Positions 8,227 through 25,881 of a stretch of 32,631 bases of DNA are shown here, one piece after another. Source of the stretch: a virus; the IMG/VR virus record IMGVR_UViG_3300038301_000293, positions 1 to 32,631 of that record. The stretch is one strand, 5' to 3'. The notes beneath the pieces are model-generated. The model saw only the letters and a program-made list of their open reading frames with translations. It searched no databases and was not told the origin of the DNA. A program made the translations under genes and the position numbers. Each line of letters starts with the position of its first letter. Positions within the stretch are counted from its first letter, which is position 1.

Positions 8227-8721
8227 ATGCCAACACGATCAGACTTAATTACAAATTATATATCATTTGATGACCAACTATTTGTAGATAGGCTACGAAA
8301 GTGGTTAAATGATACAGCCGAGCTAAATGTTCTAGAAGAAGTTCAAGAGTCTACGGATGAACAGTTACATCATGCTCTTCAAGACACTCTAGATGAGATA
8401 AACTATGAATTCTCCCCATCATCAAATTATAAATCATTTGCTCAAGTTCCAAGCTGAAACCTTTTAAAAATGGGTGCTACTTTACAAGTTCTGACGAGTA
8501 AAGGTATAATGTCATCTCGTAACACCCTTACTTACCGAGATGGAGGAGGCGTGACTGTGCAGGATATGGACAAATATGGGCGGTATATTAACTATTTCAA
8601 TATCTTAATAACTAAGTATTCTCGCGGAGTATCAAACATGAAACGTAGTGCTAATATCGATGCGGCCTACGGAGGTGTTGGGTCAGAATACGGGACAGAC
8701 TACTGGGAAACTGTAAAATAA
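8227..8721 (+). CDS. Virion neck/connector-type protein with one in-frame TGA (Trp)
   Basis: 164 residues if TGA at 8455-8457 is read as an amino acid. Under the standard code it splits into two fragments in the same frame, with no frameshift. The codon falls in AQVPS-TGA-NLLKMGAT. The following LQVLTSKGIMSSRNTLTYRD and the Gly-rich GGGVTVQD belong to a conserved phage structural family in which an aromatic residue, usually Trp, precedes LLK.GA (from memory). The N-terminal half is helical and acidic (DQLFVDRLRKWLNDTAEL). The next gene starts 2 bases after its TAA. Position upstream of the tail-terminator-like, sheath and tube genes suggests a head-tail connector role (inference). The start is ATG 8227, with AGGG 12 bases upstream, rather than the TTG at 8155. 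Confidence 0.82.
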
Positions 8722-8722
8722 A

Positions 8723-9508
8723 GTGCTAGTATTAAAGTCATTAGATGTCAACTCTTTCGACATAAATAGTTTTACACTGACATGAGAATTTGAACCTACG
8801 TTTGAACTTATATCAGATTATAATATAGATGTATACAGGTCAGAATCCCCAAACTTAGGAGAAATAACAGACTATGACCACATAGCATCCGGACTTTCTG
8901 CAACCACATATTCATATACAGATACTGGAGTATCTGGTCTTTACGATCCGCATCGGAATTGGTACTATAAAATAAAACTTACTGACTCTGATACGGCCGA
9001 AACAAATGTTGTGCCATTCATGCCTGCGTACGTAAAAGATATAAGTGTTGATAAAGTAATAAAACATGCTTTAAGAAGGAAGTCTTTAGCATTAAAAAAA
9101 TATTCTGGCAGACCTTTGAAAGTATTAAAAAAGAGATCATGAGGAACTAGATGTACGGAATGTTGGGATGATACCCTCATGAGAGTTACAGACAACTGCA
9201 GCACATGTTATGGTACAGGCTGGCTAGAAGGATATTTTACACCAATAGATGTAAAAGGTATGCTAAGCCCCTCCCCAAAAGTAAACCAAATTACTATGTT
9301 TGGGGAATGGATGCCAAGCGATACTCTTCTTACCATGTTAAATTTTCCCCCACTGAAGCCTAGGGATGTAATTGTGGACGATGTAAATAAACGGTGAATT
9401 GTAAAAAATATAAGAACTATTGAGAAAGGAGGGTTTATTATTGAACAAAGTGCCCAATTAAACTTAATTTCCCAAGATGATCTTATTTACAGTATAGCAG
9501 TTGTTTAA
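8723..9508 (+). CDS. Virion protein with FN3-like and zinc-ribbon parts; three in-frame TGA (Trp)
   Basis: 261 residues if TGA at 8783-8785, 9140-9142 and 9395-9397 are read through; one frame with no indels. The contexts are FTLT-TGA-EFEPT, KKRS-TGA-GTRCTECWDD and VNKR-TGA-IVKNIRT. Residues about 20-90 resemble a fibronectin-III-like fold (IDVYRSESPNLGE, then YSYTDTGVSG and NWYYKIKLTD). Residues about 140-165 hold two CxxC pairs (CTEC, CSTC) followed by YGTGWLEGY, a zinc-ribbon pattern. The end, IIEQSAQLNLISQDDLIYSI, continues family-like sequence after the third TGA, so this is not a decayed tail. Ordinary TGG Trp codons also occur (NWYYK, CWDD, GTGW, GEWMP). GTG at 8723 is the only plausible start. 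Likely neck or head-completion protein by position. Confidence 0.82.
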
Positions 9509-9550: not shown

Positions 9551-9748
9551 ATGAAGTTTATTATAGACGATTTAGGCCTGAAAAACGAAGAGGAAACTAT
9601 TTTAAAAGAAGTAGAAATGGAAGCATTATCTGAAGTTGAAGGAGGCATGAAAGATAACATAGAATCTACTACTAGTGTACAGGTGGTACATAATCAAATA
9701 CCAAAGGATTTAAAAAGTTATTTATTTAAGGAAATAGAAGGTTTATAA
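9551..9748 (+). CDS. Small acidic protein of unknown function in the virion cluster
   Basis: 65 residues, predicted mostly helical and Glu-rich (LKNEEETILKEVEMEALSEV), with no motif I recognise. It ends in TAA overlapping the next ATG (TAATG at 9746-9750), so it is co-translated with the tail-terminator-like gene. It could be a small assembly factor. The tight coupling and clean frame support it being a real gene. Confidence 0.6.
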   Translation: MKFIIDDLGLKNEEETILKEVEMEALSEVEGGMKDNIESTTSVQVVHNQIPKDLKSYLFKEIEGL

Positions 9749-10650
9749 TGGCTGTTAGTACAGGTAATTTAAGTTTAGATGTAAAATATTTATTTATTAC
9801 TTTCTTACAAGAGCTATTCTCAGAGGACTCTAAGTTTTCTTGGAATTCAAACGTGAGGGACACTAAGTTAATAATAGCAGATAAAAATGCAATAGATTTA
9901 GGCGTAGTAGAAAAAAAGCCTGCGTTAATAATTTCTAGGGGGGCGATGGCTTGGACTTTCACGAATTTTTCTAGGTCTGGTGCAAATCCTGAATTTTTAT
10001 ATAAAGATGGAAAGGAAACGTTAGCTGGCCCGTTAGGGTCTGCCGACTCGATAAAGAATTCTTCAGTTACTGATTTATTAAGAGCATCCGTCACAATAAC
10101 TTGTGTGGCAAAACATGGTGTATTGGCAGAAGAGCTAGCAAATTTAGTATTTACAGCTTTAACTGCACATAAAACAGACTTAAGAGCAAATGGAATTCAT
10201 AAAATTCAGTCTCTCTCTTTTGGAGAAGAGCAAATTTTAAAATCAAGTTCAGGTATTGACTTGTCGGCAGTCGCAGTACAAATGCAGTATTTGACTCAAA
10301 AGGAAATTCGTAGTGGAGAAAAACAGTACAACATGCGAGTGTGGAAAGACGACGTGGAGCAGTATGAGGGTATAGACTACAGAGTTGAGTTGCCGTATGC
10401 AACGGATATCATCTTCGAAGTTGATCCTGGCAGTGACGCAGTTATTACAGGATCGTACTTAGACGCTATATCAGGAGATTCGCATGACAACGTAACTTTT
10501 GTAAGGGTGTCTTCAGCACATTATTCTGTACCAATAAATAGCGTATATGGGTATTATAGGGTTGTAGACGGTATGCTTATTGACATACCAGATGAGAATG
10601 ATGTTCTTGTAACATCAGGAGGAGGATTTGTTCTCGTAGGAGAATCATAA
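9748..10650 (+). CDS. Tail-terminator/tail-completion-like virion protein
   Basis: 300 residues. The first ~190 have the alternating pattern of tail-terminator proteins: an N-terminal helix (LDVKYLFITFLQELF), a central strand pair (PALIISRGAMAWTF), and later LLRASVTITCVAKHGVLAEE leading into a helix and LSAVAVQMQYLTQ. The last ~100 residues form a separate beta-rich part (YGYYRVVDGMLIDIPDEND). Its place directly upstream of the sheath and tube genes is the usual place for this function; the family match is weak and partly positional. TAATG overlap with the preceding small gene. All Trp codons are TGG. Confidence 0.5.
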   Translation: MAVSTGNLSLDVKYLFITFLQELFSEDSKFSWNSNVRDTKLIIADKNAIDLGVVEKKPALIISRGAMAWTFTNFSRSGANPEFLYKDGKETLAGPLGSADSIKNSSVTDLLRASVTITCVAKHGVLAEELANLVFTALTAHKTDLRANGIHKIQSLSFGEEQILKSSSGIDLSAVAVQMQYLTQKEIRSGEKQYNMRVWKDDVEQYEGIDYRVELPYATDIIFEVDPGSDAVITGSYLDAISGDSHDNVTFVRVSSAHYSVPINSVYGYYRVVDGMLIDIPDENDVLVTSGGGFVLVGES

Positions 10651-10670
10651 ATACAGTGCTAGAGTGTATC

Positions 10671-10726
10671 AAATTGCAACAAAAGACGTTGTAATTTACA
10701 GCTGAGCAAATCTAGCTAGAGCTCAG
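10671..10726 (+). promoter_or_regulatory. Two adjacent hairpins in the leader of the sheath gene
   Basis: AAATTGCAAC (10671-10680) pairs with 10688-10697 over 10 bp with one G-U pair and a 7-base loop. CTGAGC (10702-10707) pairs with GCTCAG (10721-10726) around the palindrome TCTAGCTAGA (10711-10720). No U-tract follows, so a simple intrinsic terminator is unlikely. They may stabilise or process the message for the highly expressed sheath and tube genes. Confidence 0.45.
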
Positions 10727-10768
10727 TTTAATAACAATATTATAATATTATAATTGGAGGAAAAAATA

Positions 10769-12391
10769 ATGGCGTATGTCAAACCTGGAGTTGAAGTAAC
10801 TCAAGTACAAAATACGGCTACACCGGTTTTAGTTGCTCCTGACTTAGAAGCAGTTGTTGTTGGTAAAGGATATTATTGGCAGGACCCTACTCTGGATTCA
10901 TCTGAGTATTCTGTTAGTTATTCTGGAGTTAGCATGACCATAAATTTGAGCGGCATAAACTCAGATTTTAATTCCTTAGTTTCTGTGAATGATGAGGATC
11001 TTATTATTGTAGACATGTACGGGTCTCCAATTGTAGGCCACGGTACGGAGAAAAAACATCTTGTAAAAGGAACTGATTGGAGTTATAATGCAGCTACAGG
11101 AGATATTACTCTTGTATCTGGCATAGTGACACCTTCTGGTGAAGCCTATGAACTTGCCTCGGTAAAAATTGGTTTTAGAGCTGATAATGTCGAAGCAATG
11201 GGATTTAAGAAAAGCTTAGCAAGTCCGGACGATATAAAAGACGTGTTTGGTGGAGAAATTGTAAGTTGGAATCCGCTAGCATATGGTGCGCTTTTAGCAC
11301 AAGATAATGCCTCTGCATCTATTAATACTTTTTGTATTAGCGGTGTATCCAATATTTCCACAGAAATGTCTAGTGCACGATCAGCATTAGCGTTAGAAGA
11401 GGTATATGCTATTGGGGTTTTAGACAGTAGTGCGGGGTCAAGTGGATGGAAATCTCACGTAGAGTCATACTCTGATGCAATAAATAAAAAAGAACGAATT
11501 GTATTCTTAACGGATGAAGTAGCATATGGAAATTATGCAAGTAACAGTACTAGTGAAAAAACTACTGTAGCAGAAACTTTAAGATCTAATAATGCAACAT
11601 TTCAGTCTAAAAGAATGTTTATGATACATCCCGATGTAGCATACGTAGGAGAAACACGACATATATCTACGATTCATCCTGATTGGGTTGATGCAAGTTT
11701 TAGAGAGCACTCTGGATTCGATATGTCCGACCGCGGAGCTTATGCCCTATTTACGGGCCCTAAATCCGTAGGCAGTAAAAATTATAAAGCAGGCGATAAG
11801 ATTACAAGCGCAGTTCATGCAGAATTAATTTCGGCTGGATTCCATAGTTTGGATGTCTTTGCTCCTGTTCCTGGTTTTTACTTTAATGCAGCAAGTGCTG
11901 GGTTATGTGTAGGGATAGCACCAGAAGCACCTCTTTCTAATGTTCCTATTTCAGGAATTTCCAGAACTTACGGGTCTCAAGATTACTTTACAGAGGCTCA
12001 GATGAACATCATGGCTGAAGGCGGTACTTATATTATGACCCAATCTTCAAGCTCTGCTCCTATTGTTTCTAGACATCAAACTAGTACGGACGTTACGAGT
12101 GTTGCTAAAAGAGAGCTTAGTGTTACTAAAGCTTTAGATTACACAGCTAAATTTTTAAGGAAAGGATTAAATCCTTATATTGGTAGACATGTAGTAACAC
12201 CAGCATTTTTAAAGATGTTAGAAAGTGTTCTTATCAGTCAAGGCCTATTCTTAGTAAGAGCTGGGGTATTAAATGACTTGCAGGTTGCAAGCGTAAAACA
12301 GGACGATGCTAATCCAGATACTATTCAAGTAGAACTTAGTCTCTTGGTAAAGTATCCTGTTAACTACATTAAAATAAAAATGGTATTTTAG
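10769..12391 (+). CDS. Contractile tail sheath protein
   Basis: 540 residues, beginning MAYVKPGVEVTQVQNTATPV, the usual sheath N-terminus that forms the inter-subunit arm. The C-terminal ~130 residues match the conserved sheath domain: GGTYIMTQSSSSAPIVSRHQ, then KRELSVTKALDYTAKFLRKG, and a final strand VKYPVNYIKIKMVF. Sheath subunits surround the tube and contract during DNA injection, so the phage is a myovirus. The start is ATG 10769 preceded by TTGGAGGAAAAAATA; a TTG five codons earlier overlaps the ribosome site and is rejected. Stop is TAG. The tube gene follows by 10 bases. Confidence 0.93.
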   Translation: MAYVKPGVEVTQVQNTATPVLVAPDLEAVVVGKGYYWQDPTLDSSEYSVSYSGVSMTINLSGINSDFNSLVSVNDEDLIIVDMYGSPIVGHGTEKKHLVKGTDWSYNAATGDITLVSGIVTPSGEAYELASVKIGFRADNVEAMGFKKSLASPDDIKDVFGGEIVSWNPLAYGALLAQDNASASINTFCISGVSNISTEMSSARSALALEEVYAIGVLDSSAGSSGWKSHVESYSDAINKKERIVFLTDEVAYGNYASNSTSEKTTVAETLRSNNATFQSKRMFMIHPDVAYVGETRHISTIHPDWVDASFREHSGFDMSDRGAYALFTGPKSVGSKNYKAGDKITSAVHAELISAGFHSLDVFAPVPGFYFNAASAGLCVGIAPEAPLSNVPISGISRTYGSQDYFTEAQMNIMAEGGTYIMTQSSSSAPIVSRHQTSTDVTSVAKRELSVTKALDYTAKFLRKGLNPYIGRHVVTPAFLKMLESVLISQGLFLVRAGVLNDLQVASVKQDDANPDTIQVELSLLVKYPVNYIKIKMVF

Positions 12392-12401
12392 GAGGTAGAA
12401 A

Positions 12402-13079
12402 ATGAAAAATTTACAAAATTGGGATTTTAGATCCGGTAATGTACAATCAGTTACGAATTCTACAGATTTTCTCTCGTCTGAGTCAGTTATTCTGTGCGCA
12501 GGTACTCCAAGGTACGATGACATGACAAACCCAGAAGCTGAGCTTATCCCTGTGGGATTAATTCAGAATGCTACGGTTTCGCAGAATAAACAAATTCAAC
12601 AATTGTTTGAAATTGGTTCTAGGGAACCAGTGTTTATTCCAGGTAGAACAGTAGTACAGGTTGCTGTGTCGAGAATTTTGTTTGATGGAGAATCATTAAT
12701 GCGTGCATTGTATTCTAATGCTAACACAGATTTCGCTTCTTCAGTGTTTAAAGGGGAGGATGACGATAGAGCACCCGGATTACCCTATACGACTTCTGAA
12801 AAGTCTAGCAAGTTTTTTATAAACTTGGCAGCAGAATTCTTTAATAGACCGATGGGGTTAGCTTTTATTCTTGAAGATATGGATAATGATGGGGCAGGAA
12901 CATCACGATATGGTGGATTTTACTTAGAAAATTGTAGAATTCAATCACATCAATTTTCTGTTGCTAGTCAACAAACTATTTTGTTAGAGAATATTGGGCT
13001 TAGAACTTCTAAGTTAATTCCCATACAAGTTAGTGATCAAGTATCATCTAATACAGTAGCACCTGACTCACCTGTTTAG
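12402..13079 (+). CDS. Tail tube protein
   Basis: 225 residues. Placement immediately after the sheath, size, and segments such as LIQNATVSQNKQIQQLFEIG, EPVFIPGRTVVQVAVSRILF and the end YLENCRIQSHQFSVASQQTI fit the gp19-like tail-tube family of myophages. Tube proteins polymerise into the channel through which DNA passes. A strong AGGAGGT site (12390-12396) overlaps the sheath stop. It is the last late gene before the terminator at 13105-13133. Stop is TAG. Confidence 0.85.
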   Translation: MKNLQNWDFRSGNVQSVTNSTDFLSSESVILCAGTPRYDDMTNPEAELIPVGLIQNATVSQNKQIQQLFEIGSREPVFIPGRTVVQVAVSRILFDGESLMRALYSNANTDFASSVFKGEDDDRAPGLPYTTSEKSSKFFINLAAEFFNRPMGLAFILEDMDNDGAGTSRYGGFYLENCRIQSHQFSVASQQTILLENIGLRTSKLIPIQVSDQVSSNTVAPDSPV

Positions 13080-13142: not shown

Positions 13143-13508
13143 TTATCTAGCCCATTTTCCTTCAGAAACAATCCTTGATATAACTCCATAAACAGATAAG
13201 TCACCAAAAGCATCAACAACAGACTCATTCTGCGGCTCCCGCATTGTTTTCACAACCAAGTTTAGTAATCTTTGAACTTTATCATTCATTCTAATTATAA
13301 GCCCTGTTAAACTCATTCTTACTTCACTTTCGTCTACAAGGCCTGTCCCTAAACTTATATTTCCAGGGCCGTAGTCCATTTGCTTCTCACAAAAAACTTT
13401 GTAGTCTTCTTGCTGTATTTCCTTAAAGCGCTCCATCATGCTCGGATAAAATCGTTCACAGTAATCTATTGCGCTCTCTTTCTTTTCTTTTCTTTTATTA
13501 TTTTTCAT
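13143..13508 (-). CDS. Nmad1 (DUF1599)-like nucleotide-modification-associated protein
   Basis: 121 residues from the ATG at 13508. Key segments are FCEKQMDYGPGNISLGTG, then LIIRMNDKVQRLLNLV, and ESVVDAFGDLSVYGVIS. These match the family pattern KQxDYGxxN, RxxDKxxRxxxL and DxxxDLxxY known as nucleotide modification associated domain 1. The family occurs in phages with modified bases; the precise reaction is not settled. The ATG overlaps the polymerase stop (TAATG), so it is coupled to DNA polymerase. The TTG-initiated form starting at 13520 is less likely. A role linked to nucleotide pools or DNA modification is inferred. Confidence 0.75.
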   Translation of the reverse strand: MKNNKRKEKKESAIDYCERFYPSMMERFKEIQQEDYKVFCEKQMDYGPGNISLGTGLVDESEVRMSLTGLIIRMNDKVQRLLNLVVKTMREPQNESVVDAFGDLSVYGVISRIVSEGKWAR

Positions 13509-15265
13509 TAGTGTACCCAATGGTTATCTATTACAGCTTCTACTTCCATAGCTATTCCAGGACAGTAGTGCTCAAATGCTTCTATCATCCCGACTTCTAA
13601 AAGCTTTCCTACGTCATCGGCATCGTCTTCATGAGCCTCTACTAGAATTTCATCATGAACTACATTAACTATTTTAGCATCGTACTCACCACTATCTATA
13701 GCTTCTTTTACCAGACATAACGCTAACTTAGTTATTGATGCAGATGCTCCTTGGCATATAATATTTTTAGAAATATTTAATGCATGAGAAACCTGCCTCT
13801 TATCATCCCAATCAAAAGATGACAAGTCTCTTCGTCTTTTATCTAAAGGCGAAAGAGCGTACTTTAGTTTCTTTGCCGCAGACACTGCCTGATCTAGTAC
13901 CTTTTTAATATTTGGGAATGTTGAGAAATATTTATTCATTAAAGTTTTAGCTTCCATAAAGCTAATACCTAAATTCTCTGCAAGTCTTCCAGGACCAATA
14001 CCGTATATTAAACCAAATGTAAGCGCTTTAGCAGCGTTACGTTGTTTCTTAGTAATGTCCTTATATGGAATTCCATATATTAGGCTTGCTGAATTTGTGT
14101 GTAGATCAACTTTATTATTTATAGCATTTATTAGTCCAGGCTCTTTGCTTATATATGCCAGTACCCGAATTTCTTGGCTAGCATAATCAGCAGCAATAAT
14201 TCTATACTCAGAGTCTTGTGCCGTAAAAGCTGACCTGTATCTCTCGTCACTTGGAATATTTTGTAAGTTAGGTTGAGTACTTGAGTACCTACCAGAGTCA
14301 GCACCGAGCTGTTTAAAGTTAGAGTGGATTCTACCGTCGTATGAACTTACAAATTTTCTAAAAAACTCTTCTCCATACGTACTAATACGCTTCTGCTTTT
14401 CTCTATAGTCTAGTAAAAAGTCCACAACTTCGTGATTTACTTTTTTTAACTCTTGCTCACCTGTTGAAGTTATATTCATACCAGTAATTTTACTTAGAAT
14501 CGGTAATAATTGTTTTGGTGACCTATAGTTTATATCAACATCCTCAAACAAAGTTAACTGACCACAGTAAGGTTCGAAGTATTTATCTAAACCTTTTTTA
14601 GCAATATCTGCATCAGCCTCAGCTTCTACTTTCAAAGCTGTCCACTTCTTCCTATCTAAAAAAAGCCCATTTAGCTCCATATCCCCTGTAGGAGCAACTG
14701 TCCTATACTCCAATCTTGACAGTTCGTCCATGTTTCTACTTTCTAAAAGTCTTTGCATGTTTTTATATAGAGGAATTAGGTGTTTAGTATCATCGCCAGC
14801 ATACTTTATTTGGCTTTCTGTGAAAGTTGATCCTAATCTCATATCAATAAAAGATTTTTGTTCGGCTTTACTAACTTCAACCCCTAAGTATTTATACAGA
14901 ACAGAATCCAATCCGCTACTTAATTTTTTCCCGGTCGTTAAAAGTTGGTTTGCAAGCATAGTACATCTCATATTTGTAAGCTCTATTTCAAAATTTCCTT
15001 TTATCATTTTATAATCAAACTTTGCGTTGTGTAAAACCTTAACTAAATCTTTTTCTGTTAACCAATGTAACACTGTAAAAATTTTAGTATTTAGTTTGAA
15101 AACATCAAACACAAATTGTTTATGTTCTGTACCCACTTGCAATAATAGTACTTTATTTAGTACCGGGTCCAGTCCATTTGTTTCTGTGTCAACCGCTACA
15201 ATGCTTTGAGTCTTTAAGTAAGACATAGCTTCTACCAATTCCGACTCCGTTGTTACGTATCCCAT
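13508..15265 (-). CDS. polA: Family A DNA polymerase with 3'-5' exonuclease
   Basis: 585 residues. The exonuclease domain carries VAVDTETNG (D26, E28), HNAKFDY (D84) and YAGDDTKHL near 155-163. The polymerase domain carries motif A AADYASQEIR (D360), motif B KQRNAAKALTFGLIYG (407-422) and motif C VVHDEIL (H537-D538-E539). No 5'-3' exonuclease domain is present, as in T7-type replicative enzymes. Phe at the O-helix position (F417) resembles E. coli Pol I rather than T7. It is the likely phage replicase, working with the primase-ATPase at 28755-31493. A GGAGG site lies in the end of the sigma gene, which it overlaps by 13 bases. Confidence 0.95.
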   Translation of the reverse strand: MGYVTTESELVEAMSYLKTQSIVAVDTETNGLDPVLNKVLLLQVGTEHKQFVFDVFKLNTKIFTVLHWLTEKDLVKVLHNAKFDYKMIKGNFEIELTNMRCTMLANQLLTTGKKLSSGLDSVLYKYLGVEVSKAEQKSFIDMRLGSTFTESQIKYAGDDTKHLIPLYKNMQRLLESRNMDELSRLEYRTVAPTGDMELNGLFLDRKKWTALKVEAEADADIAKKGLDKYFEPYCGQLTLFEDVDINYRSPKQLLPILSKITGMNITSTGEQELKKVNHEVVDFLLDYREKQKRISTYGEEFFRKFVSSYDGRIHSNFKQLGADSGRYSSTQPNLQNIPSDERYRSAFTAQDSEYRIIAADYASQEIRVLAYISKEPGLINAINNKVDLHTNSASLIYGIPYKDITKKQRNAAKALTFGLIYGIGPGRLAENLGISFMEAKTLMNKYFSTFPNIKKVLDQAVSAAKKLKYALSPLDKRRRDLSSFDWDDKRQVSHALNISKNIICQGASASITKLALCLVKEAIDSGEYDAKIVNVVHDEILVEAHEDDADDVGKLLEVGMIEAFEHYCPGIAMEVEAVIDNHWVH

Positions 15266-16071
15266 CTCAAAAAATCCTCCAAAGTTTTAGAATACTTCTT
15301 ACTCCGCAACTTTTTTAATATTTTCTCTTTAATTTGCCTTATTCTTTCTCTAGTTAACCCCATATCTACACCAATCTCTTTTAACGTATATGGCCTAACT
15401 TGTTCAATACCATAATACATTTTTAATATGCTCTTCTCCCTCTCAGGAAATGTTTTTAGGATATGAGTGAGTTCTTTCTTAAACTCTCCGTCTGTTTTTA
15501 AAACACCATAAGACAAGTCAGCAGGTATAATCTCATTTAAAGTTTCATTATTTTCAGTATGTGGAGTATCAAGACCAATAACTGTGTAATTAAACTTCAT
15601 GTCTCTTATGGCTGTCGTATCTCCATCTAAGTATTCTTCTAATTCATTTATCGAAGGATATCTTCCTAATTTATTTTCTAGCCTTTCGGAAGCTTTAGTA
15701 GCTTTCGTTATGTTAGAAATTTTATTCAAGGGCAATCTAATAATTTTCGCATTTTCATGCAGTGAATTAAATATAGCTTGACGAATCCACCACACAGCGT
15801 AAGTAATAAACTTTACATCTTTACTAATATCGAACTTCTCAAATGCTTTTACTAGGCCTAAGTTACCTTCTGATACTAACTCGTCTATTGTAAGTCCTTG
15901 ATTTTGGTACTTCTTAGCCACGCTAATAACAAATTTTAAATTAGATGTTATTACTTTTTCCCTAGCAGCCATGTCACCGAGTTTTCCTTTCTTTATTAAT
16001 ACCCTCTCTGCCTTTTTACTTAAAGGTGTACTAGGTATAATAGATTTTAAATAATAACTGAATGCATCCAT
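15253..16071 (-). CDS. Phage-encoded sigma-70-family RNA polymerase sigma factor
   Basis: 272 residues covering regions 1.2 to 4.2. Region 2 includes NLKFVISVAKKYQNQGLTID and FITYAVWWIRQAIFNSLHEN; a region 3 segment follows; region 4 ends with TLKEIGVDMGLTRERIRQIK, the helix-turn-helix that reads -35 elements. It would redirect host RNA polymerase to phage promoters, probably middle or late ones. The ATG has no Shine-Dalgarno site and lies only about 13 bases after the T-run of a terminator (16091-16117). Expression therefore needs readthrough or a promoter inside the upstream gene. It overlaps polA by 13 bases, tying replicase and sigma expression together. Confidence 0.95.
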   Translation of the reverse strand: MDAFSYYLKSIIPSTPLSKKAERVLIKKGKLGDMAAREKVITSNLKFVISVAKKYQNQGLTIDELVSEGNLGLVKAFEKFDISKDVKFITYAVWWIRQAIFNSLHENAKIIRLPLNKISNITKATKASERLENKLGRYPSINELEEYLDGDTTAIRDMKFNYTVIGLDTPHTENNETLNEIIPADLSYGVLKTDGEFKKELTHILKTFPEREKSILKMYYGIEQVRPYTLKEIGVDMGLTRERIRQIKEKILKKLRSKKYSKTLEDFLRWDT

Positions 16072-16080
16072 ATTTATTTT

Positions 16081-16117
16081 TGATTAAAAAAAAGGGCACA
16101 TCAATGACGCGCCCTTT
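16081..16117 (-). terminator. Intrinsic terminator after holin-like gene, before sigma gene
   Basis: On the - strand AAAGGGC (16117-16111) pairs with GCCCTTT (16097-16091) around a 13-base loop, followed by a run of T residues (8 in a row counting the end of the stem). It lies between the holin-like stop (16137) and the sigma start codon (16071). Confidence 0.8.
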
Positions 16118-16136
16118 ATTGTTTTAAATGTTTGAA

Positions 16137-16340
16137 CTAGTTTTTTGCTTGAAAGTATGCTCCCATAGCATCGACCACTCCTTGTCCCGCGATATACGAA
16201 GGTACAATTGTAGTGATAGCTCCAACTAAGTTTTGAGCCATTGCAGGGTCTAACCCTGCCCAGTCTACAATAAGTACAGAGAAAACTCCACCTAATGCAA
16301 CCCATAATTTCCTACTTACTAGTTTTTCTTTCCAATTCAT
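16137..16340 (-). CDS. Small holin-like membrane protein
   Basis: 67 residues. A short charged N-terminus (MNWKEKLVSRK) precedes a hydrophobic helix (LWVALGGVFSVLIVDWAG, 12-29) and a second apolar stretch (NLVGAITTIVPSYIAGQGVV, 37-56). This resembles small phage proteins annotated as holins, which permeabilise the host membrane at lysis. No endolysin is adjacent, so lysis function is tentative. A terminator follows directly. Stop is TAG. The leader is A-rich with no Shine-Dalgarno site. Confidence 0.5.
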   Translation of the reverse strand: MNWKEKLVSRKLWVALGGVFSVLIVDWAGLDPAMAQNLVGAITTIVPSYIAGQGVVDAMGAYFQAKN

Positions 16341-16345
16341 TTGTT

Positions 16346-16606
16346 TTATTTGGTTTGTTTATTTAAATGATAAATTTTATCATCATCTTGTCTAACGGCT
16401 TTTCCATCGTCCTGTAACTTTTGGCAAATAGAGCAGTTAATGTACCCCCTGCATTTATCAGGGTTATCCCAGTTATGAAATATTTGATCAAACTTATCTC
16501 CATAATCTGGTCCTACCGGACTTTGAGTATTCCTAATTTCACCAAAGTCTATGCTCTGTGCTCTTTTTTGCCTACCGTCATCTTGTTTGATTGAATTTAT
16601 GTTCAT
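16346..16606 (-). CDS. Small unknown protein with clustered cysteines
   Basis: 86 residues, polar, not recognised. CRGYINCSIC (C-x5-C-x2-C) near 53-62 could bind a metal. The N-terminal third is rich in Gln, Asp and Arg. It starts 20 bases after the E1-like gene's stop, and the interval holds CTTTAATATAACTAAT (16608-16623, + strand), a 16-mer also found at 27976-27991. It may belong to the ubiquitin-like cassette, but that rests on proximity alone. Confidence 0.55.
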   Translation of the reverse strand: MNINSIKQDDGRQKRAQSIDFGEIRNTQSPVGPDYGDKFDQIFHNWDNPDKCRGYINCSICQKLQDDGKAVRQDDDKIYHLNKQTK

Positions 16607-16626
16607 ACTTTAATATAACTAATAAT

Positions 16627-17220
16627 TTAGAAGTGGGCAATATAATTATGAGTGTTTTTATCTCCCCTAACCCAGTTTAAAATAAACTGTGCTCCGATAC
16701 TGCTCACTATTCTGTTCCCAAGTTGTATTATATTATTTTCAAACTCCCACTGTCTCTGGCAACTGCCATTTTCTACGTCTTCTTTAGGCAATGTTTTCAT
16801 CATTACGTCAAGAGTATTTTTCTTACTCTTAGTAAAAATAGCTATATCTCGTCCCTCGCTTCTCATATCCATCCAAAAAATATTGTCGTATTTATCCACA
16901 TACTTAAATAGTAGCTTCCTAAACTTAGAGTTGTCGACACAGCATACAATTCCATCATAATTCATTAACTGTTCTTCCTTCTCTATACGATTGGTAATTG
17001 AGTTAAATCCGTACCTTGCTGACAGTGATTCAGATTTTTCATCCATTATGTCTTCTAATGAAAAATTTTGGTATGATAAGTTTTTATTTTCTACCGTGTC
17101 ATCATCTGCAAAAGTAAATACCATATCATCTGGAAATTGGCCGTGCAATTCTAGATTAAAGAGGTGCTCTGCTAACCAACTTCCTATTCCTCCTGCTCCT
17201 ACTATTAGTACATGTCTCAT
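16627..17220 (-). CDS. ThiF/E1-like adenylyltransferase
   Basis: 197 residues. The nucleotide-binding GAGGIG (8-13), acidic strand end FADDDTVENKNLSYQ (D39-D41, N47, Q51; Tyr replaces the usual Arg before Gln), a Lys at 62, and IVCCVDNSKFRKLL (D96) are the standard E1/MoeB/ThiF adenylation signature. Such enzymes activate the C-terminal glycine of ubiquitin-like proteins with ATP. C154 (NGSCQRQW) is a candidate for thioester formation but is not proven. The protein is short and lacks a CxxC zinc site. Its ATG directly follows the JAB stop (TAA-ATG), and the Gly-Gly-ended partner lies one gene further upstream. Resembles PRTRC-type ThiF proteins in context. Confidence 0.85.
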   Translation of the reverse strand: MRHVLIVGAGGIGSWLAEHLFNLELHGQFPDDMVFTFADDDTVENKNLSYQNFSLEDIMDEKSESLSARYGFNSITNRIEKEEQLMNYDGIVCCVDNSKFRKLLFKYVDKYDNIFWMDMRSEGRDIAIFTKSKKNTLDVMMKTLPKEDVENGSCQRQWEFENNIIQLGNRIVSSIGAQFILNWVRGDKNTHNYIAHF

Positions 17221-17649
17221 TTAATTTGTCTCCAGTTCTATAGGGTCCCAGTTACGGTTAGACTCATTACCATCGTAATAATAGGCCCTAGTTTCCTTAA
17301 ATTTAGGTGAGTGTATAATATATACCCCCGTGTAACCTGCTCCTTGAACATCTGTAACAGAGGGTATTGGCCGGTTATTTGGGTGAGAGTGCATAATTCC
17401 TAAAAAGTCACTTTCTGCGCTCGAAGAAACATGAGTAGTTTTTCTTAACATACTCATAAATTCATTAGGGTCCGGTACATAATGTACTTCTTTGTTCTCT
17501 GTACTTATATTAGTTAGTGGTATAAACTCTTCACACTTCCATGAGTTACCTTGTTTTTTGCCAACCATAGCCCCAACAATTTCGTCGGGGCTACTATTTG
17601 CATAACTTGTCATCTCATAGAGTATGTCTCTTGAAATGCTAAAATTCAT
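17221..17649 (-). CDS. JAB/MPN-type (JAMM) metalloprotease
   Basis: 142 residues from ATG 17649. The catalytic JAMM pattern is complete: HSH-x7-S-x2-D at H87, H89, S97 and D100, plus an upstream Glu (E23 in SPDEIVGAMVG). Known relatives remove ubiquitin-like proteins from targets or trim them to expose Gly-Gly. A TTG 12 bases upstream was rejected: the ATG has a GGTGGA site formed by the last Gly-Gly codons of the previous gene and starts 1 base after its TAA, so translation of protease and ubiquitin-like protein is coupled. It belongs to the E1/JAB/Ub-like trio. Confidence 0.88.
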   Translation of the reverse strand: MNFSISRDILYEMTSYANSSPDEIVGAMVGKKQGNSWKCEEFIPLTNISTENKEVHYVPDPNEFMSMLRKTTHVSSSAESDFLGIMHSHPNNRPIPSVTDVQGAGYTGVYIIHSPKFKETRAYYYDGNESNRNWDPIELETN

Positions 17650-17650
17650 C

Positions 17651-17899
17651 TTATCCACCAACTAACGCGTTAGCCATCATGATTTCTTCCGCATCTATCA
17701 CATCTTCTAAAGTAATTGAGTCAGGTGTTTTATGGTTTCCGTCAATATAAGCCCATCGGCCCGTAGTTTCTGATTCATACTTTATCTTTTCTAGGGCTGC
17801 AACAGGTATTCCAGACCACTCGTCGTGCCCATTAGTTGACACAATTTTTATTGTAACCTCTGATAACTCGCTTGAAATGTTATTTTTGTTTTCGTTCAT
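17651..17899 (-). CDS. Ubiquitin-like (beta-grasp) small protein ending in Gly-Gly
   Basis: 82 residues ending ANALVGG, so a free diglycine (81-82) is present from the start. The order fits a beta-grasp fold: strands at EVTIKIVSTNG and GIPVAALEKIKYESETTGRW, a YIDGN turn, then ITLEDVIDAEEIMMA. The end resembles the PRTRC protein C pattern (xPExVxxxYxxxYPELxxAxVxG), from memory. It lies directly upstream of a JAMM protease and an E1-like enzyme, the usual partners of a ubiquitin-like modifier. Fold assignment is inferred from length, C-terminus and neighbours. Confidence 0.6.
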   Translation of the reverse strand: MNENKNNISSELSEVTIKIVSTNGHDEWSGIPVAALEKIKYESETTGRWAYIDGNHKTPDSITLEDVIDAEEIMMANALVGG

Positions 17900-17921
17900 A
17901 TTTTCTTACCGTGATTATTTG

Positions 17922-19997
17922 TTATAATGTGTTAATAGCACTTGCGACCAAAGCGTCGTTGTGAAGTGCGTATATTCTATTTACTAATTTATCCATGCCT
18001 ACCTGGCTGGATGACTTATCCACAATACAAATATACCTTCCTTCCGGGAAAGAATATACTCCACATTGAGGATCGTTAGTATCTATTTGTTCCTTACCTC
18101 CAGTGTCTATGAAGTATTTTCTCAAAGACCCTTTTATAAGGTACCCAGTTTTAGAAGAACCGTCGCCCATGGTAACTGTCTCTTCTTCGATGTTGAATGT
18201 TTTTTCTGTGTCAGTTAAAAGTTCCTTACTCTTCTCTATAGCATCTACATAAGCTTTCTTACCAGAAGAAATAATTCCTTTTATACTGTCAACTTCCACG
18301 CCCTCTACAGACTTACCGTCAAGAAGCGTGTTCACCACATCCATCATGGATCCTTTTCTAGATAATCCTATGACTTTCTGAGTATTTTTTACTCTATAAG
18401 ACTCATCGTTTATCACGAGGTAGTTTATATTCTTTCTTCTTTCCAGAGGTAACTTTAAAGCTACCGTGATATTATCAAACTCATCACGAACATTTATATC
18501 AACACCTACTTGAAGATAAGTATGTATTTTTAGGGAACATTTACTAACAGAGGCTATAAAATAGTCAAAGTCTGCTTGGTTAGTAAAACACAAACCCCTC
18601 TCTAGTACAGACTCCACCTCATCAGAATTTATTCTTTTATTATTTACATAAATTCTTGTGGCCGTAAAACCGAGGGTATTGGTACTAACTCTTTTCTCCA
18701 CTTTAAATGAGACCTCCCCTACATTTCCGATTCCTTCTGAATCAGAGACGTATGATAAAAATATAGGCAAAGCTTGGTCAAAGTTTACATCGTCTAAACT
18801 ATATGCACGAGATAGCGTATTCAGGATTTTATAAGTTAAGTTTGGTATATCTGACCTTAAGACTTGTCCTTCGTACTCTATTTTTTCATCTGAGTAGGTA
18901 ACTCCATTCAGTTTAAGGGACTTTCCTGGTGTTAATAAAGTCTGTAACCTCTTTTCTATTTTTTCTCGGAGTTTGTTTTTAGCTTTAGACTTGGCTTCTT
19001 TTCTAGCAGAGCGTTGTAGTTCTCTCTTAGTAAGGATGTTCAAAGAATTGTTATCTAGAAATTCAACATAATCACCATTTTTCCCGAGAAGATAGTTGCT
19101 TAATACTACCCTATTTGGCAAAGTAGGCTCAGGATCAGTAAAAATTAGATTACCTAGAGGTACCATTCTTTTTTCATTTCTACCTGAGTAGTGTAAATGA
19201 GTACCAGAACCCAAGTAGTATACCCTACCCACGTCTACATAGTCATAAGACGGGTCAGAGTGAGGCACAAGTCTAAAGAACGAGTTATATCTCGTACCAT
19301 AACCGTACGTAGAAGAGTAATAAGAAACATACCCTCTAAAATTATCTAGCTCCAATACGTGAGCTATGAAATATAGGTTGGGGTTACTATTTAGAAGTCT
19401 AGTTGTCTTTTCACTCGGAGCAGTTGTTGTTAACTTTCCTCCTTTAAAAAAAGATCCTAATAGTTTATCAATATCTTCTTTTTCCACAGGTATGTGCGTC
19501 GAGTCCCAAGCAGTTTTTAAGTTACGTTCGTACTCTACCCTAAAATCACTTACATTTTTAAACACTTTATTTAAAATATCAGGAAAGGACGTATTAGTAA
19601 GAATATGTGATATCACATAAAGAGCTTCAAAATCCGAGTCTTTTATGTTTTCAAAGTAAATATCTGTACCGTACGAAGGAGAAAATTTAAAAAATTCTGT
19701 CTTATCGCCCCAATGTCTATATTGCCCATCTTCTACAAAGTAGTTGTGCGTTGTTTTTTGTATATCAACACTTGATCCATACCCGGAGGACACAATAACT
19801 GATGACCCCTTTACCTGGTATTTTAAGGCATTTAAAACAGTACTTACCTTACTTTCATCCCCATCACCCTTAAACATCTCAATTGTTTTGTTCTGTAAGT
19901 TACTTACTTTAGAGTTTATATCCTCTATATTTTTGTCAGTAAGATTTAGTTCATACAACCCGTTAATAGCGGGTAGTAAGTGTTGTGTTGTATTCAT
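17922..19997 (-). CDS. Large protein of unknown function beside the ubiquitin-like cassette
   Basis: 691 residues, not recognised. The start is ATG 19997 with AAAGGAAAC just upstream; a TTG eight codons earlier is rejected. The middle (about 225-265) is Tyr-rich (YVSYYSSTYGYGTRYNSFF). A basic, probably coiled segment follows near 345-375 (SARKEAKSKAKNKLREKIEK). No transmembrane segment, signal peptide or known catalytic motif was seen. The gene lies 16 bases after the OB-like gene and 22 bases before the ubiquitin-like gene in one run of genes, so it may be target, scaffold or effector of the E1/JAB module (inference). Confidence 0.75.
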   Translation of the reverse strand: MNTTQHLLPAINGLYELNLTDKNIEDINSKVSNLQNKTIEMFKGDGDESKVSTVLNALKYQVKGSSVIVSSGYGSSVDIQKTTHNYFVEDGQYRHWGDKTEFFKFSPSYGTDIYFENIKDSDFEALYVISHILTNTSFPDILNKVFKNVSDFRVEYERNLKTAWDSTHIPVEKEDIDKLLGSFFKGGKLTTTAPSEKTTRLLNSNPNLYFIAHVLELDNFRGYVSYYSSTYGYGTRYNSFFRLVPHSDPSYDYVDVGRVYYLGSGTHLHYSGRNEKRMVPLGNLIFTDPEPTLPNRVVLSNYLLGKNGDYVEFLDNNSLNILTKRELQRSARKEAKSKAKNKLREKIEKRLQTLLTPGKSLKLNGVTYSDEKIEYEGQVLRSDIPNLTYKILNTLSRAYSLDDVNFDQALPIFLSYVSDSEGIGNVGEVSFKVEKRVSTNTLGFTATRIYVNNKRINSDEVESVLERGLCFTNQADFDYFIASVSKCSLKIHTYLQVGVDINVRDEFDNITVALKLPLERRKNINYLVINDESYRVKNTQKVIGLSRKGSMMDVVNTLLDGKSVEGVEVDSIKGIISSGKKAYVDAIEKSKELLTDTEKTFNIEEETVTMGDGSSKTGYLIKGSLRKYFIDTGGKEQIDTNDPQCGVYSFPEGRYICIVDKSSSQVGMDKLVNRIYALHNDALVASAINTL

Positions 19998-20013
19998 TTT
20001 GTTTCCTTTGGTT

Positions 20014-20409
20014 TTACTCAAATAAGCTAGATTTTTCCAAGTTTTCTTCGTCCATTTTACATGATGTCATAACTAAAAAGTTGTCATTATCTGGGTATAC
20101 ATTTACTTCTTTACCAATTAATTCATTTAGATCTGAGATTTTGTAATACCTCATTAATTTAGCTAGGGAGCTGTTTGGCGATATATTACCTTCATGGTTT
20201 AGTGATAGCCAAAGCCCCTGAATTTTCTTATTTCCCTTATTGTCTTCTGTCCATACGTCTGAAATTTGGAAGCTTTTTCCATCTGGCTGGGACACAGAAA
20301 ACCTAATTTTTTCTGATGTTTCACCACGTACGTCTACTTCCACTTTTTCTGCGTTTATAACAGTAACTTTTCTTAGTTGACTTCCTACTTTTAAATTTAA
20401 AAAACTCAT
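20014..20409 (-). CDS. Small beta-rich, possibly OB-fold protein with C-terminal SLFE
   Basis: 131 residues, predicted mostly beta: SQLRKVTVINAEKVEVDVRG, then KIRFSVSQPDG, and LIGKEVNVYPDNDNFLVMTS. The end is acidic and finishes LEKSSLFE. The DUF669 protein at 25882-26313 finishes TGASLFE, so both may bind the same partner through their C-termini. A nucleic-acid-binding role is only a guess from the fold pattern. It starts a transcription unit after a strong terminator, with an A-rich leader and no Shine-Dalgarno site. Confidence 0.65.
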   Translation of the reverse strand: MSFLNLKVGSQLRKVTVINAEKVEVDVRGETSEKIRFSVSQPDGKSFQISDVWTEDNKGNKKIQGLWLSLNHEGNISPNSSLAKLMRYYKISDLNELIGKEVNVYPDNDNFLVMTSCKMDEENLEKSSLFE

Positions 20410-20474
20410 ATGTTTTCTTTTTGATTTATTGTTTATCTTATTATTGCTATTATTAGTGTGTGTTTGATAAACAA

Positions 20475-20528
20475 AAATGGCCTATAAAAATTTATAGGCC
20501 ATTTCATAGTAAGTCGCATACTTACTAT
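20475..20528 (-). terminator. Double hairpin and U-tract after the ribonucleotide reductase gene
   Basis: On the - strand a 9-bp hairpin (ATAGTAAGT, 20506-20514 with 20520-20528) is followed by a long hairpin (14 complementary bases, 20475-20488 with 20491-20504, AAATGGCCTATAAA) and then TTTTTGTTTATC. The second is a strong intrinsic terminator for the dUTPase/reductase transcript. The first may protect the 3' end. Confidence 0.9.
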
Positions 20529-20547
20529 ATTATTCTTATACCATATA

Positions 20548-23529
20548 TTATATTATTTCACAGGTGTCATTGTTGCAAAATTTTTCTACATTAGCTTCTT
20601 CATCCTTCACGGTTCCAAAGCTTAATTTACTTAGACTTTGCGTCATTTTATTGTAGGTATCTTCGTCTATTGATTCATATGGCATCTGAGCGTATGCACC
20701 AATCTTCGTACGGGGAAGAAAGGAAACCGACTTTAGTTTGTACTGATAGTGCTCTAATGCCCTTTCAATGTCGTGGCCCTCAGTTTCAGGGTTAAATGTT
20801 ACTGTCACTGACACCGCGTTATCTGCCCAGTTCTCTGACATAAAAGCTGCTAATTCTAGTTGCTCCCACATCGTCACTTCATTTAGTGGGCGTATACCGC
20901 TTCCGACGTCTACCGGTATCTCTACCACTGACGTGGATTCTTCTTGCCCTACTGCGGGCTCTACTGTGTAACCTGCTTTTTCTAAAGGGCTTAGCAGCTG
21001 ACTATGATTACCTATTCTCATACGCCTTATATAAAAACGTGACTCAGGGTAATGTATACCAGGAGTACTACCATTTAGTAAACTGATACTTCCGCTTGGT
21101 TTGTTAGTTGTTATTCGTATACTTCGGGGTATAGCTAACCAATTAGAGTATATTTTATCATACTCTTTTAAAGCATCATACCCATCGTTCAACCACTCTC
21201 TTAGAGTAGGTAAATTCTGGTTTGTTAAGAATTGCGCAATACCACTCACACTGGTACCTACTCTCCTATTTCTTAGCATGACTGCATTAGTCTGTGGCCA
21301 ATGAGTGTTTAAAAGTGTCACAGTTTTACTGTATAGATAAGCGTACTTTAAAGATTTTATAAAGTCTTCTTTAGATTCATGTTTGTCAGGGAAGACCTCA
21401 CATAAATTACATTGAAAAGTTAAAGAATTTCCAAAAACACCCATTCCCGTAAGGGGCTCGTAAAAACAAAATGTAGGATGGGTACCCGGTAACTCCTCAA
21501 TAGATCTAATAGACTGGTGTTTTTTATTACTTACAGGCTTTGAATCTTTATATGCGTTGTTCTCTGAATACCCAGTGCCAAAATTTCTTATCTTTTTTAA
21601 TCGCGTGGGGATAGATTTACAGTCATGAGAGTGAATTCTGAGCCCCCATAAAGCATAGTTTCGAATTCCCTTATTTGTTTTAAATCCTTTAGGGGAGCAT
21701 TCAAATGCGGCAGTGTAATTAATTCCAACACGCCGTAAAAGAACTTGCATGTCCTTCATTTGTAGCTCCTTACCATATAAAACATAGTGCTCAGTATATT
21801 TATTTTTAAGAACTGTGCCATCAGTCTCTATGTACCCTGCTGTAAACTCTAATATTGATTTCTTATCCATAGTAAAAACAAAATCAGGAAGCCCTTTCAT
21901 TTTACGTAAATCAGTGGACTTATCAACGTCCAGAACAGATTTTAAATATAGCCTGTTTATGGGGTCTTTACACTCTTTCTTTATTTGAGGCTTTCCCCAC
22001 TTTCCTTTTACATTAAGATTCTTTAATTTAACCTTATCTCCACATAAAGTTACTATGGGGTTTTCTTTATAAACACAACCATCACCTGCCATTAAACCGT
22101 ACTCAAAGGCATTAGGATAATACTCCCCCTCAATACCGCCTAAAGTGAAATCAGGAAGTCTGTAACCCTTTCTAAGCTCTGAGGCTTTTACAGTTTTAAA
22201 CTTAACACTGCCAGAGGGTAAAGCACTAAATCTATGGTAGTCCGTCGTTTCAAGAACTGACCCATCAGTCATAGTAATTCTTAAAAGCTTAGACGACGTA
22301 GAAGTTTTAAAAGGTGTAACTTTGGACCAATTTTCCCCGTTCCATATCTCTACTTCTTTACCAACAATGTTTTTAATTTTTGCATTACCGCTTTTTAATT
22401 GTAAGCGAGTGTCACCTGCTACGCATTTTTCTGCGCTCTCTAAGAATATCTCACCACATGGATTTGTGGCTTGTGTTCTGTCATCTTTTTGTAATCCATT
22501 AGATGTATCTCCCATCCTCTTATTATTATGTGCATTTTCTAACCACAACAACCCAGGCTCTCCATTAATACGAATGCTCTCAGCTATATCTTTGTAGTCC
22601 ATACCTAGTGTAGCATTTACACTATTATTAGATGACCAACCGTAGTCAACTCTTCCGGGATTCACTTCGTAGTTTTTTAAGTTTAAAAACTCTTCTGAAG
22701 TATCACCTGCTATTAAGATAGCTGACCTTCTTGTATTTCCCGCAACAACTACTTTTCCCGTAAGATTGAATATATCGGCTATAGTGGTTTGCGTAATTAA
22801 ACTGCCGACATTTTTATCTAATGTTTTACATACTGCAGAATGAAATTCTTTTAAAGGTGCGCTACCTGAAGCAGTCCCACCAAACGTTTTAATAGGAGAG
22901 CCTGCAGGACGAATTAATGAGTAATCCATAATAGGAGTTTTATTTTTACCAAAATAGGCCCCAATGACCAGTCCTAGTGACTCAACCCACCCTTCTCTTG
23001 TGTCTGGTATAACAAAAATCTCTTCTTCTTTAGACGGTTCTCGTACATCTATGGTACCTGCCCCCTTTAGATCTACCCCCATTCCCACACCAAGCATTAA
23101 CATATCTTTAGCAAACATGAATGGGTAAGAGGGGTCCTTAGCTATATTTTCAGTACTGACAAAACAGCAATTGAACAAGGCGGGCGTCAAACGCTTTTTA
23201 CTTATAATGTCCGACCCTTGTGCAAATAAACCTCTACCTGGGGGCAATATTTTCATATGAAACATGCGGTCATACATCTCTTGTGCGGAAAATTGTGACT
23301 TCTGTGGGTTCCATTCTAGCCTGTGCTGTTCAATCCAATCCTTTTGGATGTTGTAGGTTCCCTCAACAACACGTTTTATTGTTTCCCACCATCGCTCATT
23401 TTTGCCGTCGTCCTTTATTCTACTATAGGTTCTGTAGTATACAAGTTCTCCTAAACCGTTAAACCCAAAAGGTGGTTTCTTTCTTTTATACTTAGATATA
23501 AAATTTTCTGATAATGAAAATTTGCTCAT
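20548..23529 (-). CDS. nrdJ: Class II (adenosylcobalamin) ribonucleotide reductase with intein
   Basis: 993 residues; 655 after removing a 338-residue intein (369-706). The reductase part matches monomeric B12-dependent ribonucleoside-triphosphate reductase: FNCCFVSTENI near 119-129, FAKDMLMLGVGMGVDL, NPCGE (thiyl C358, E360), CNLCEVF after the intein, NKPSGSISLLNGSTPGIHYP, and a C-terminal C-x4-C pair (CNNDTC) for redox shuttling. Spacing C358 to the spliced Cys is 11 residues, as between C408 and C419 of the Lactobacillus enzyme. It makes dNTPs for phage replication without a separate small subunit but needs host cobalamin. A GGAGG site sits in the end of the dUTPase gene, whose stop lies 2 bases before the start. 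Confidence 0.93.
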   Translation of the reverse strand: MSKFSLSENFISKYKRKKPPFGFNGLGELVYYRTYSRIKDDGKNERWWETIKRVVEGTYNIQKDWIEQHRLEWNPQKSQFSAQEMYDRMFHMKILPPGRGLFAQGSDIISKKRLTPALFNCCFVSTENIAKDPSYPFMFAKDMLMLGVGMGVDLKGAGTIDVREPSKEEEIFVIPDTREGWVESLGLVIGAYFGKNKTPIMDYSLIRPAGSPIKTFGGTASGSAPLKEFHSAVCKTLDKNVGSLITQTTIADIFNLTGKVVVAGNTRRSAILIAGDTSEEFLNLKNYEVNPGRVDYGWSSNNSVNATLGMDYKDIAESIRINGEPGLLWLENAHNNKRMGDTSNGLQKDDRTQATNPCGEIFLESAEKCVAGDTRLQLKSGNAKIKNIVGKEVEIWNGENWSKVTPFKTSTSSKLLRITMTDGSVLETTDYHRFSALPSGSVKFKTVKASELRKGYRLPDFTLGGIEGEYYPNAFEYGLMAGDGCVYKENPIVTLCGDKVKLKNLNVKGKWGKPQIKKECKDPINRLYLKSVLDVDKSTDLRKMKGLPDFVFTMDKKSILEFTAGYIETDGTVLKNKYTEHYVLYGKELQMKDMQVLLRRVGINYTAAFECSPKGFKTNKGIRNYALWGLRIHSHDCKSIPTRLKKIRNFGTGYSENNAYKDSKPVSNKKHQSIRSIEELPGTHPTFCFYEPLTGMGVFGNSLTFQCNLCEVFPDKHESKEDFIKSLKYAYLYSKTVTLLNTHWPQTNAVMLRNRRVGTSVSGIAQFLTNQNLPTLREWLNDGYDALKEYDKIYSNWLAIPRSIRITTNKPSGSISLLNGSTPGIHYPESRFYIRRMRIGNHSQLLSPLEKAGYTVEPAVGQEESTSVVEIPVDVGSGIRPLNEVTMWEQLELAAFMSENWADNAVSVTVTFNPETEGHDIERALEHYQYKLKSVSFLPRTKIGAYAQMPYESIDEDTYNKMTQSLSKLSFGTVKDEEANVEKFCNNDTCEII
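21412..22425 (-). other. Intein with LAGLIDADG homing endonuclease in nrdJ
   Basis: The intein covers residues 369-706. Block A is CVAGDTRLQL; block B is TTDYHRF with the expected His; two LAGLIDADG-type helices are EYGLMAGDGCV (476-486) and FTAGYIETDG (562-571). It ends GNSLTFQ before Cys 707. The terminal residue is Gln with Phe before it, rather than the usual His-Asn; Gln-ended inteins are known but uncommon. Boundaries are set because removal gives LESAEK-CNLCEV, the exact reductase spacing. Cys 707 is both the splicing nucleophile and the predicted redox Cys. Confidence 0.9.
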
Positions 23530-23531
23530 AC

Positions 23532-23933: not shown

Positions 23934-23946
23934 TTTCTTCTTTTGG

Positions 23947-24174
23947 TTATGTTAAAATCATTATTAATTTAATATTTTTAGTGGGTATCAATATAGTATA
24001 TGGTGTAGGTTCCCCAAATTCTTTTATTATTTCTTCATTAGTGTGTGGCTTTAACATGACAAATGTTTCATTGTAACATACAATATGTCCAACCCCACCA
24101 CCTACTAGTGAGTCATGTACTATCTGCACCACATTTTTCTTTTGAACTATCTCTTCTATAAATCGTAAATCCAT
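23947..24174 (-). CDS. Small unknown protein
   Basis: 75 residues, not recognised. Segments such as FIEEIVQKKNVVQIVHDSLV and GVGHIVCYNETFVMLKPHTN suggest a small mixed alpha/beta fold without membrane segments. It overlaps the recU end by 19 bases and precedes the dUTPase-like gene by 13 bases, so it is co-transcribed with nucleotide and recombination genes. No function can be assigned. Confidence 0.6.
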   Translation of the reverse strand: MDLRFIEEIVQKKNVVQIVHDSLVGGGVGHIVCYNETFVMLKPHTNEEIIKEFGEPTPYTILIPTKNIKLIMILT

Positions 24175-25860: not shown

Positions 25861-25881
25861 ACACAAACTTATTACAAGCTA

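Follow-up and report, generated by a model that had tools for sequence, protein, structure and literature searches.

Sequence evidence that a large contractile-tailed phage reads UGA as tryptophan in late structural genes, with a long-armed UCA-anticodon tRNA in its recoded relatives

Analysis of a virus fragment of 32,631 bases (IMG/VR record IMGVR_UViG_3300038301_000293, 36.5% GC; hereafter the window) indicates, from its genes and those of its relatives, that the phage concerned reads UGA as tryptophan in late structural genes. The phage is a large contractile-tailed myovirus with a genome of about 200 kb, a size estimated by comparison with relatives. No close relatives were found among GenBank phages, only remote ones such as Salmonella phage Arash and Vibrio phages. 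To our overall explanation, a myovirus in which a late-operon tRNA(UCA) charged by the host tryptophanyl-tRNA synthetase (TrpRS) decodes UGA as tryptophan, we assign a probability of roughly 0.86, in the absence of expression or protein data.

Table 1. Features of the window, and the UCA tRNA of contig G029 (coordinates of that contig)
Feature	Coordinates	Strand	Remarks
Late virion gene 1, 164 aa, helical, one in-frame TGA	8227..8721	+	From translation; 11 homologues aligned
Late virion gene 2, 261 aa, GTG start, three in-frame TGAs	8723..9508	+	Predicted FNIII-like plus stopper-like fold; phrog_2806 (unknown function)
In-frame TGA, gene 1 residue 77 (PS-W-NLLK.GA)	8455..8457	+	Non-TGA homologues: Trp 13/17
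In-frame TGA, gene 2 residue 21	8783..8785	+	Non-TGA homologues: Trp 13/13
In-frame TGA, gene 2 residue 140 (before GTRCxxCWD)	9140..9142	+	Non-TGA homologues (n=15): Trp 7, Tyr 7, Phe 1
In-frame TGA, gene 2 residue 225 (after KR)	9395..9397	+	Non-TGA homologues (n=13): Trp 11, Val 2
Further late structural genes, without TGA	9748..13079	+	Includes tail sheath, 10754-12391
Divergent early/replication block	13143..32610	-	DNA polymerase A, sigma factor, RNR, dUTPase, primase-helicase; 0 in-frame TGA, 0 TGA stop
UCA tRNA of G029	complement 45135-45234	-	Adjoins amidase gene

A preliminary description of the window had located four in-frame TGA codons, without any indel, in two adjacent genes. 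The positions are exact (Table 1), and the sequence continues in the same frame and is conserved on both sides of each TGA. The read-through products that it predicted both have full-length homologues on viral contigs. The same four TGAs are present in G001 and G002, contigs from two other IMG samples that are 99.99% identical over ~25 kb, so sequencing or assembly error is excluded for practical purposes. The stop codons of the 29 genes of the window are TAA (23) and TAG (6), never TGA, and no gene other than these two was found to be interrupted, so the in-frame TGAs exceed what chance would give. Two virion genes are indeed the full extent of the phenomenon within the window, but the relatives and adjoining contigs hold many more such genes.

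Both genes had also been likened to phage neck or connector families, which stood for gene 2 only. The best PDB match of its AF2 model (pLDDT 72.7) in Foldseek was the stopper of phage 812 (8qgr, E 3.6e-4), with more phage connector/stopper structures matched at E 0.004-0.006, and on this predicted fold gene 2 probably encodes the head-to-tail stopper. For gene 1 the resemblance remains unproven, as its AF2 model was of low confidence and had no significant PDB fold match; from gene order, directly upstream of gene 2, we infer that this helical protein is probably the head-tail adaptor. Pfam and PHROGs provided no name for gene 1 and nothing beyond phrog_2806 for gene 2, and a sequence search of solved structures gave no useful relative. 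To the left of these genes, within window positions 1-7700, both contigs G001 and G002 break at 7450/7709, and the leftmost 7.4 kb, where a fibre gene lies together with collagen-like repeats and a 592-aa gene that matched nothing in Pfam, is perhaps a variable tail-fibre region.

The assignment of UGA was examined in related sequences with a home-made, Codetta-like tally. On 18 recoded contigs, 691 TGA sites had informative homologues; BLOSUM62 scores summed over these sites were 1431 for tryptophan, 326 for tyrosine and 104 for phenylalanine, and tryptophan was the commonest residue at 357 of the sites, near the behaviour of TGG control columns. The sites are not an independent sample, but the margin is very large. 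No UGA = Trp signal was obtained from the standard-code relatives G007, G015, G019/G020 and G035, which use TGA as a stop. The homologue columns at the four TGAs of the window are rich in tryptophan (Table 1), and other phages in the clade have TGA at different tryptophan columns of the same two proteins. The residue before GTRCxxCWD had been expected to be aromatic, commonly tryptophan; aromatic it is, but tryptophan alone was too strong a claim, the column holding tryptophan or tyrosine. Coding coverage was 0.945 under code 4 versus 0.921 under the standard code for the window, and 0.959 versus 0.868 for the 82%-identical contig G003. The original inference that UGA encodes tryptophan is therefore supported by the tally and the columns together, and is the sole assignment that fits.

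No tRNA was detected in a search of the 32.6-kb window. Each of the near-complete recoded relatives G005 (210 kb), G017 (210 kb) and G024 (205 kb) carries a lone UCA-anticodon tRNA on the late strand, flanked by tail-fibre genes and an amidase (lysis) gene, ~80-175 bases upstream of the latter and away from the main tRNA array, which sits on the opposite strand. An amidase-alignment scan, itself blind to tRNAs, yielded 14 distinct lineages; such a tRNA lay beside the amidase in all five recoded lineages (G005, G017, G024, G033 and G034) and in none of the nine standard-code lineages, an outcome with a chance of ~1 in 2002 if shared ancestry is ignored. Genes for RF1/RF2 and TrpRS were looked for in 15 records, which may be incomplete, and none was found. 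Two of the relatives also have tRNAs with a CUA (amber-reading) anticodon (G017 c115365-115439, L137; G024 c105393-105469, L157), although TAG is an ordinary stop there; these are apparently unused amber suppressors, as likewise reported for phage Lera (PMC12386605).

For the window phage, the UCA tRNA that had been named as a check on UGA decoding is absent from the fragment itself and was found by a DNA pattern scan on the adjoining contig G029 (IMGVR_UViG_3300024261_000050, 49 kb), which shares its sample with G002. The two contigs do not overlap, but they are syntenic with G005, on whose map G002 reaches ~64 kb and G029 begins at 65.9 kb. Their tetranucleotide correlation is 0.936, for which the references are 0.84-0.91 between within-genome halves of three relatives and 0.93 and 0.92 for the same-sample pairs G012/G032 and G004/G033; G002 correlates at 0.976 with its near relative G003 and at most at 0.78 with all others. 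From shared sample, synteny and composition, with no joining read, we infer that G029 is very probably another part of the window's phage. A search of the G001 and G003 samples for a second contig pair of this kind, as confirmation, found none. A phage-encoded, late-strand UCA tRNA is thus established for the relatives and very probable for the window phage.

In all, 57 distinct UCA tRNA sequences were parsed, one of which (L209) is a chance match, so that arm counts refer to 56. The set has a 7-bp acceptor, a 5-bp T stem and the anticodon loop CUUCAAA, and the variable region, mostly 21-27 bases, forms a stem (mean 5.4 bp vs 3.5 in shuffles) whose pair types vary freely. In the acceptor, which the search pattern did not constrain in these respects, the discriminator is G73 in 56/57, pair 3-70 is G-C in 46/57, and pair 1-72 is A-U in 45/57 and G-U in 10/57. 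Bacterial tryptophan identity involves G73, A1-U72, G2-C71, G3-C70, G4-C69, G5-C68, A9 and C34 C35 A36 (PMC9976931), and every acceptor position of this list has the tryptophan state as its majority state across our set. The acceptor of the window phage's tRNA on G029 (AGGCCUG/CAGGCCU G) fits tryptophan at pairs 1-3 and G73 and has C-G at pairs 4 and 5. As for C34 C35 A36, the decoding arm reads UCA, and a CCA is located in the variable-arm hairpin. When applied beyond the clade, the pattern caught 41 contigs on which UGA = Trp was again obtained over 222 sites, one or two of these contigs (such as that of L209) being chance pattern matches.

These features raise the question of whether the UCA tRNA of the phage instead serves selenocysteine or serine and has no connection with the reading of UGA as tryptophan. 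ARAGORN labels it SeC, and in Rfam RF01852 (tRNA-Sec, gathering cut-off 47 bits) two of five tRNAs score just above the cut-off, that of G029 lying below at 38.5. Like bacterial tRNA-Sec, the phage tRNA has a UCA anticodon, a long variable arm, G73 and, in part of the set, an extended D stem, and the long arm and G73 are features recognized by SerRS (PMC7609411). However, bacterial tRNA-Sec has an 8-bp acceptor with G1-C72 and a 13-bp acceptor/T domain, as opposed to the 7 bp and A1-U72 of the phage form. The same distinction separates the 19 tRNA-like hits of a pattern scan of 84,980 bacterial and archaeal genomes, 14 of which are of tRNA-Sec form with the longer G1-C72 acceptor and five of phage type. 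In addition, the phage tRNA has the variable loop NUCCAAA, its 3' half aligns to tRNA-Trp, and it is found beside UGA codons whose homologue columns hold tryptophan, neither serine nor cysteine. On the acceptor stem and these columns we dropped a tRNA-Sec identity, and we regard the reading as a whole as quite unlikely. Because the long variable arm and G73 form the SerRS recognition set and the Rfam scores are near the cut-off, charging could nevertheless be mixed. The five phage-type tRNAs from cellular genomes (L303, L319, L323, L336 and L347; Bacteroides neonati, a Coriobacteriia MAG and others) lie on contigs that are mostly denser in coding under code 4 and are candidate recoded prophages.

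The distribution of TGA between early and late genes bears on the host. G002 (52 kb, near-identical to the window) and G003 (64 kb) each have two divergent gene blocks. In G002 the TGA:TGG ratio is 1:75 in the early/replication block versus 28:52 in the structural block (Fisher p 9.5e-9), in G003 4:82 early versus 52:103 late, and in G005 0:105 versus 93:145 (p 2e-18); the p values are only indicative, as codons within a gene are not independent. Across these predicted genes TGA does not serve as a stop; it is common in late genes and almost missing from the early replication operon. Several late genes of the window (fibre, sheath, tube) nevertheless lack TGA, so "late" does not equal "recoded" for every gene. 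Were the host itself to use genetic code 4, no suppressor tRNA would be needed, and both the lack of TGA stops and the lack of a tRNA in the window would be as expected. At 36% GC, however, TGA should then be a main tryptophan codon everywhere, and early genes have almost none; some relatives (G007, G015) keep the standard code and have many TGA stops, and recoded relatives carry the UCA tRNA exactly where standard-code ones lack one. A code-4 host, dropped on the early/late contrast, retains very little credibility.

Just as little can be said for the idea that an ordinary tRNA-Trp(CCA), of host or phage, reads UGA through a Hirsh-type D arm (A24), with low-level readthrough being enough. A tRNA-Trp(CCA) is present in G005, G017, G024 and G025 and absent from G007, and that of G005 has U11-A24. 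The D-arm feature is not common to all, G024 having the usual U11-G24, and on this ground the candidate was rejected; moreover, losses would compound where one virion gene holds several TGAs, and every recoded near-complete relative has a dedicated UCA tRNA. That the two genes are decayed pseudogenes or carry sequencing errors has nothing in its favour beyond the stops themselves and can be set aside almost entirely, given three assemblies with the same TGAs, conservation on both sides, no other type of stop in the frames and a clade-wide pattern.

The preferred reading, a phage tRNA(UCA) with tryptophan identity, leaves the CCA of the variable arm to be considered. In most of the set the loop of this arm is seven bases, NUCCAAA, to be compared with the tRNA-Trp(CCA) anticodon loop CUCCAAA. 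When one such tRNA was compared by BLAST with GenBank phages, it matched annotated tRNA-Trp genes, mainly through the 3' half, and in the alignment the variable arm, together with its CCA, lies opposite the tRNA-Trp anticodon arm. Because UCCAA had been part of our first pattern, the scan was repeated with no constraint on the variable region; UCCA was present there in 48 of 53 long-armed UCA tRNAs, and four of the five without it resemble tRNA-Sec, so that 48/49 of the phage type carry it. A strict 7-base loop is formed in 36 of the 48, and in the tRNA of G029 the loop is either GUCCAAA closed by a C-A mismatch or nine bases long. The amidase-found set, which is free of pattern bias, has UCCA in the variable region in 5/5, compared with 1/33 tRNA-Ser, 1/33 tRNA-Leu and 0/12 tRNA-Tyr controls. 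A short variable loop was seen in another 13 UCA tRNAs from the free scan; the two-hairpin form therefore has alternatives, and these predicted opal suppressors of ordinary form coexist with the long-armed form. Short-loop examples are L349-L356, L358-L361, L366, L367, L369, L372 and L374, several of them (L369, L356, L352, L355) on code-4-like contigs.

These observations suggest a tRNA with two anticodons, in which the UCA hairpin would read UGA and a retained tRNA-Trp hairpin (NUCCAAA) would supply the CCA determinant of host TrpRS. Charging and decoding are both inferred here, and we offer this only as a tentative hypothesis, somewhat short of even odds. If it is true, charging and decoding would be divided between two loops of one tRNA, an ordinary host TrpRS could charge a UGA reader, which would account for its use by phages, and many such tRNAs would have been overlooked because tRNA finders label them SeC or miss them.

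In the course of infection that we propose, early genes would be translated under the standard code of the host. Transcription of the late operon would then bring tRNA(UCA) with it, which host TrpRS may charge through G73, A1-U72, G2-C71 and G3-C70, the CCA-bearing variable arm making up for the anticodon identity that the change of C34 to U removed. At UGA the charged tRNA would compete with release factor 2 of the host, and full-length virion proteins would in consequence be made only late. The early block also contains a phage sigma-70-type factor (15253-16071, minus strand), a candidate for a late-transcription switch of the recoded genes and the tRNA. Two further observations concern this block. 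Its class II ribonucleotide reductase (20548-23529, minus strand; 993 aa) has an intein-like insert with a LAGLIDADG-like domain, and that of G003 is 664 aa without the insert. Neighbouring genes on the same strand for a ThiF/E1-like protein (16627-17220), a JAB-protease-like protein (17221-17661) and a small 82-aa protein (17651-17899) look like a phage ubiquitin-like modification cassette.

Phages that read UGA as tryptophan are already known, and the window phage is a further member from a different contractile-tailed clade. Code-4 phages that encode a UCA suppressor tRNA, in some cases together with RF1 and TrpRS, were described by Borges et al. 2022, as far as that work is related in PMC10746230 and PMC11210395, and the zeta crAss-like phage Lera is recoded in the same way (PMC12386605); in a 2024 survey only 11/73 code-4 phages had a UCA tRNA, although part of the code-4 phages infect code-4 hosts (PMC11210395). 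To the extent that these accounts cover them, the earlier phages share with ours the UGA = Trp assignment, TGA enrichment in structural and lysis genes, a phage UCA suppressor tRNA and a proposed early/late regulation. They differ, within the same limits, from our phages, which belong to another clade by gene content, have no RF1 or TrpRS gene that we could find, and carry a suppressor whose gene adjoins the amidase within the late operon and whose variable arm is long and contains CCA. The bacterial selC* tRNA-Cys and allo-tRNAs (PMC7609411) are likewise tRNA-Sec-like in form and not used for selenocysteine, but selC* is charged with cysteine, and allo-tRNAs have 8/4 or 9/3 forms and insert serine or alanine, whereas the phage tRNA is 7/5 with tryptophan identity. 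With the phage tRNA-Trp(CCA) of Aeromonas phage B614 and Erwinia phage Stratton it aligns well over the 3' half, starting at the anticodon hairpin and ending at CCA, but in front of the CCA hairpin it has an additional arm with the anticodon UCA, and the CCA hairpin thereby becomes the variable arm. A literature search whose scope did not include Borges et al. 2022 itself retrieved no account of a UCA tRNA from a phage in which the variable arm is long and bears CCA; within that scope, the Sec-like two-hairpin suppressor tRNA and its late-operon place beside the lysis amidase are apparently new.

Stop-codon recoding is known in phages, and how UGA is decoded within standard-code hosts is poorly resolved. 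Because a single clade shows the decoder, where it lies in the late operon and how its presence or absence matches recoding, the idea that recoding times late expression becomes directly testable. If the hypothesis of the second CCA-bearing hairpin is true, it would represent a new way to change the codon of a tRNA while keeping its synthetase, and would be useful for genetic code engineering.
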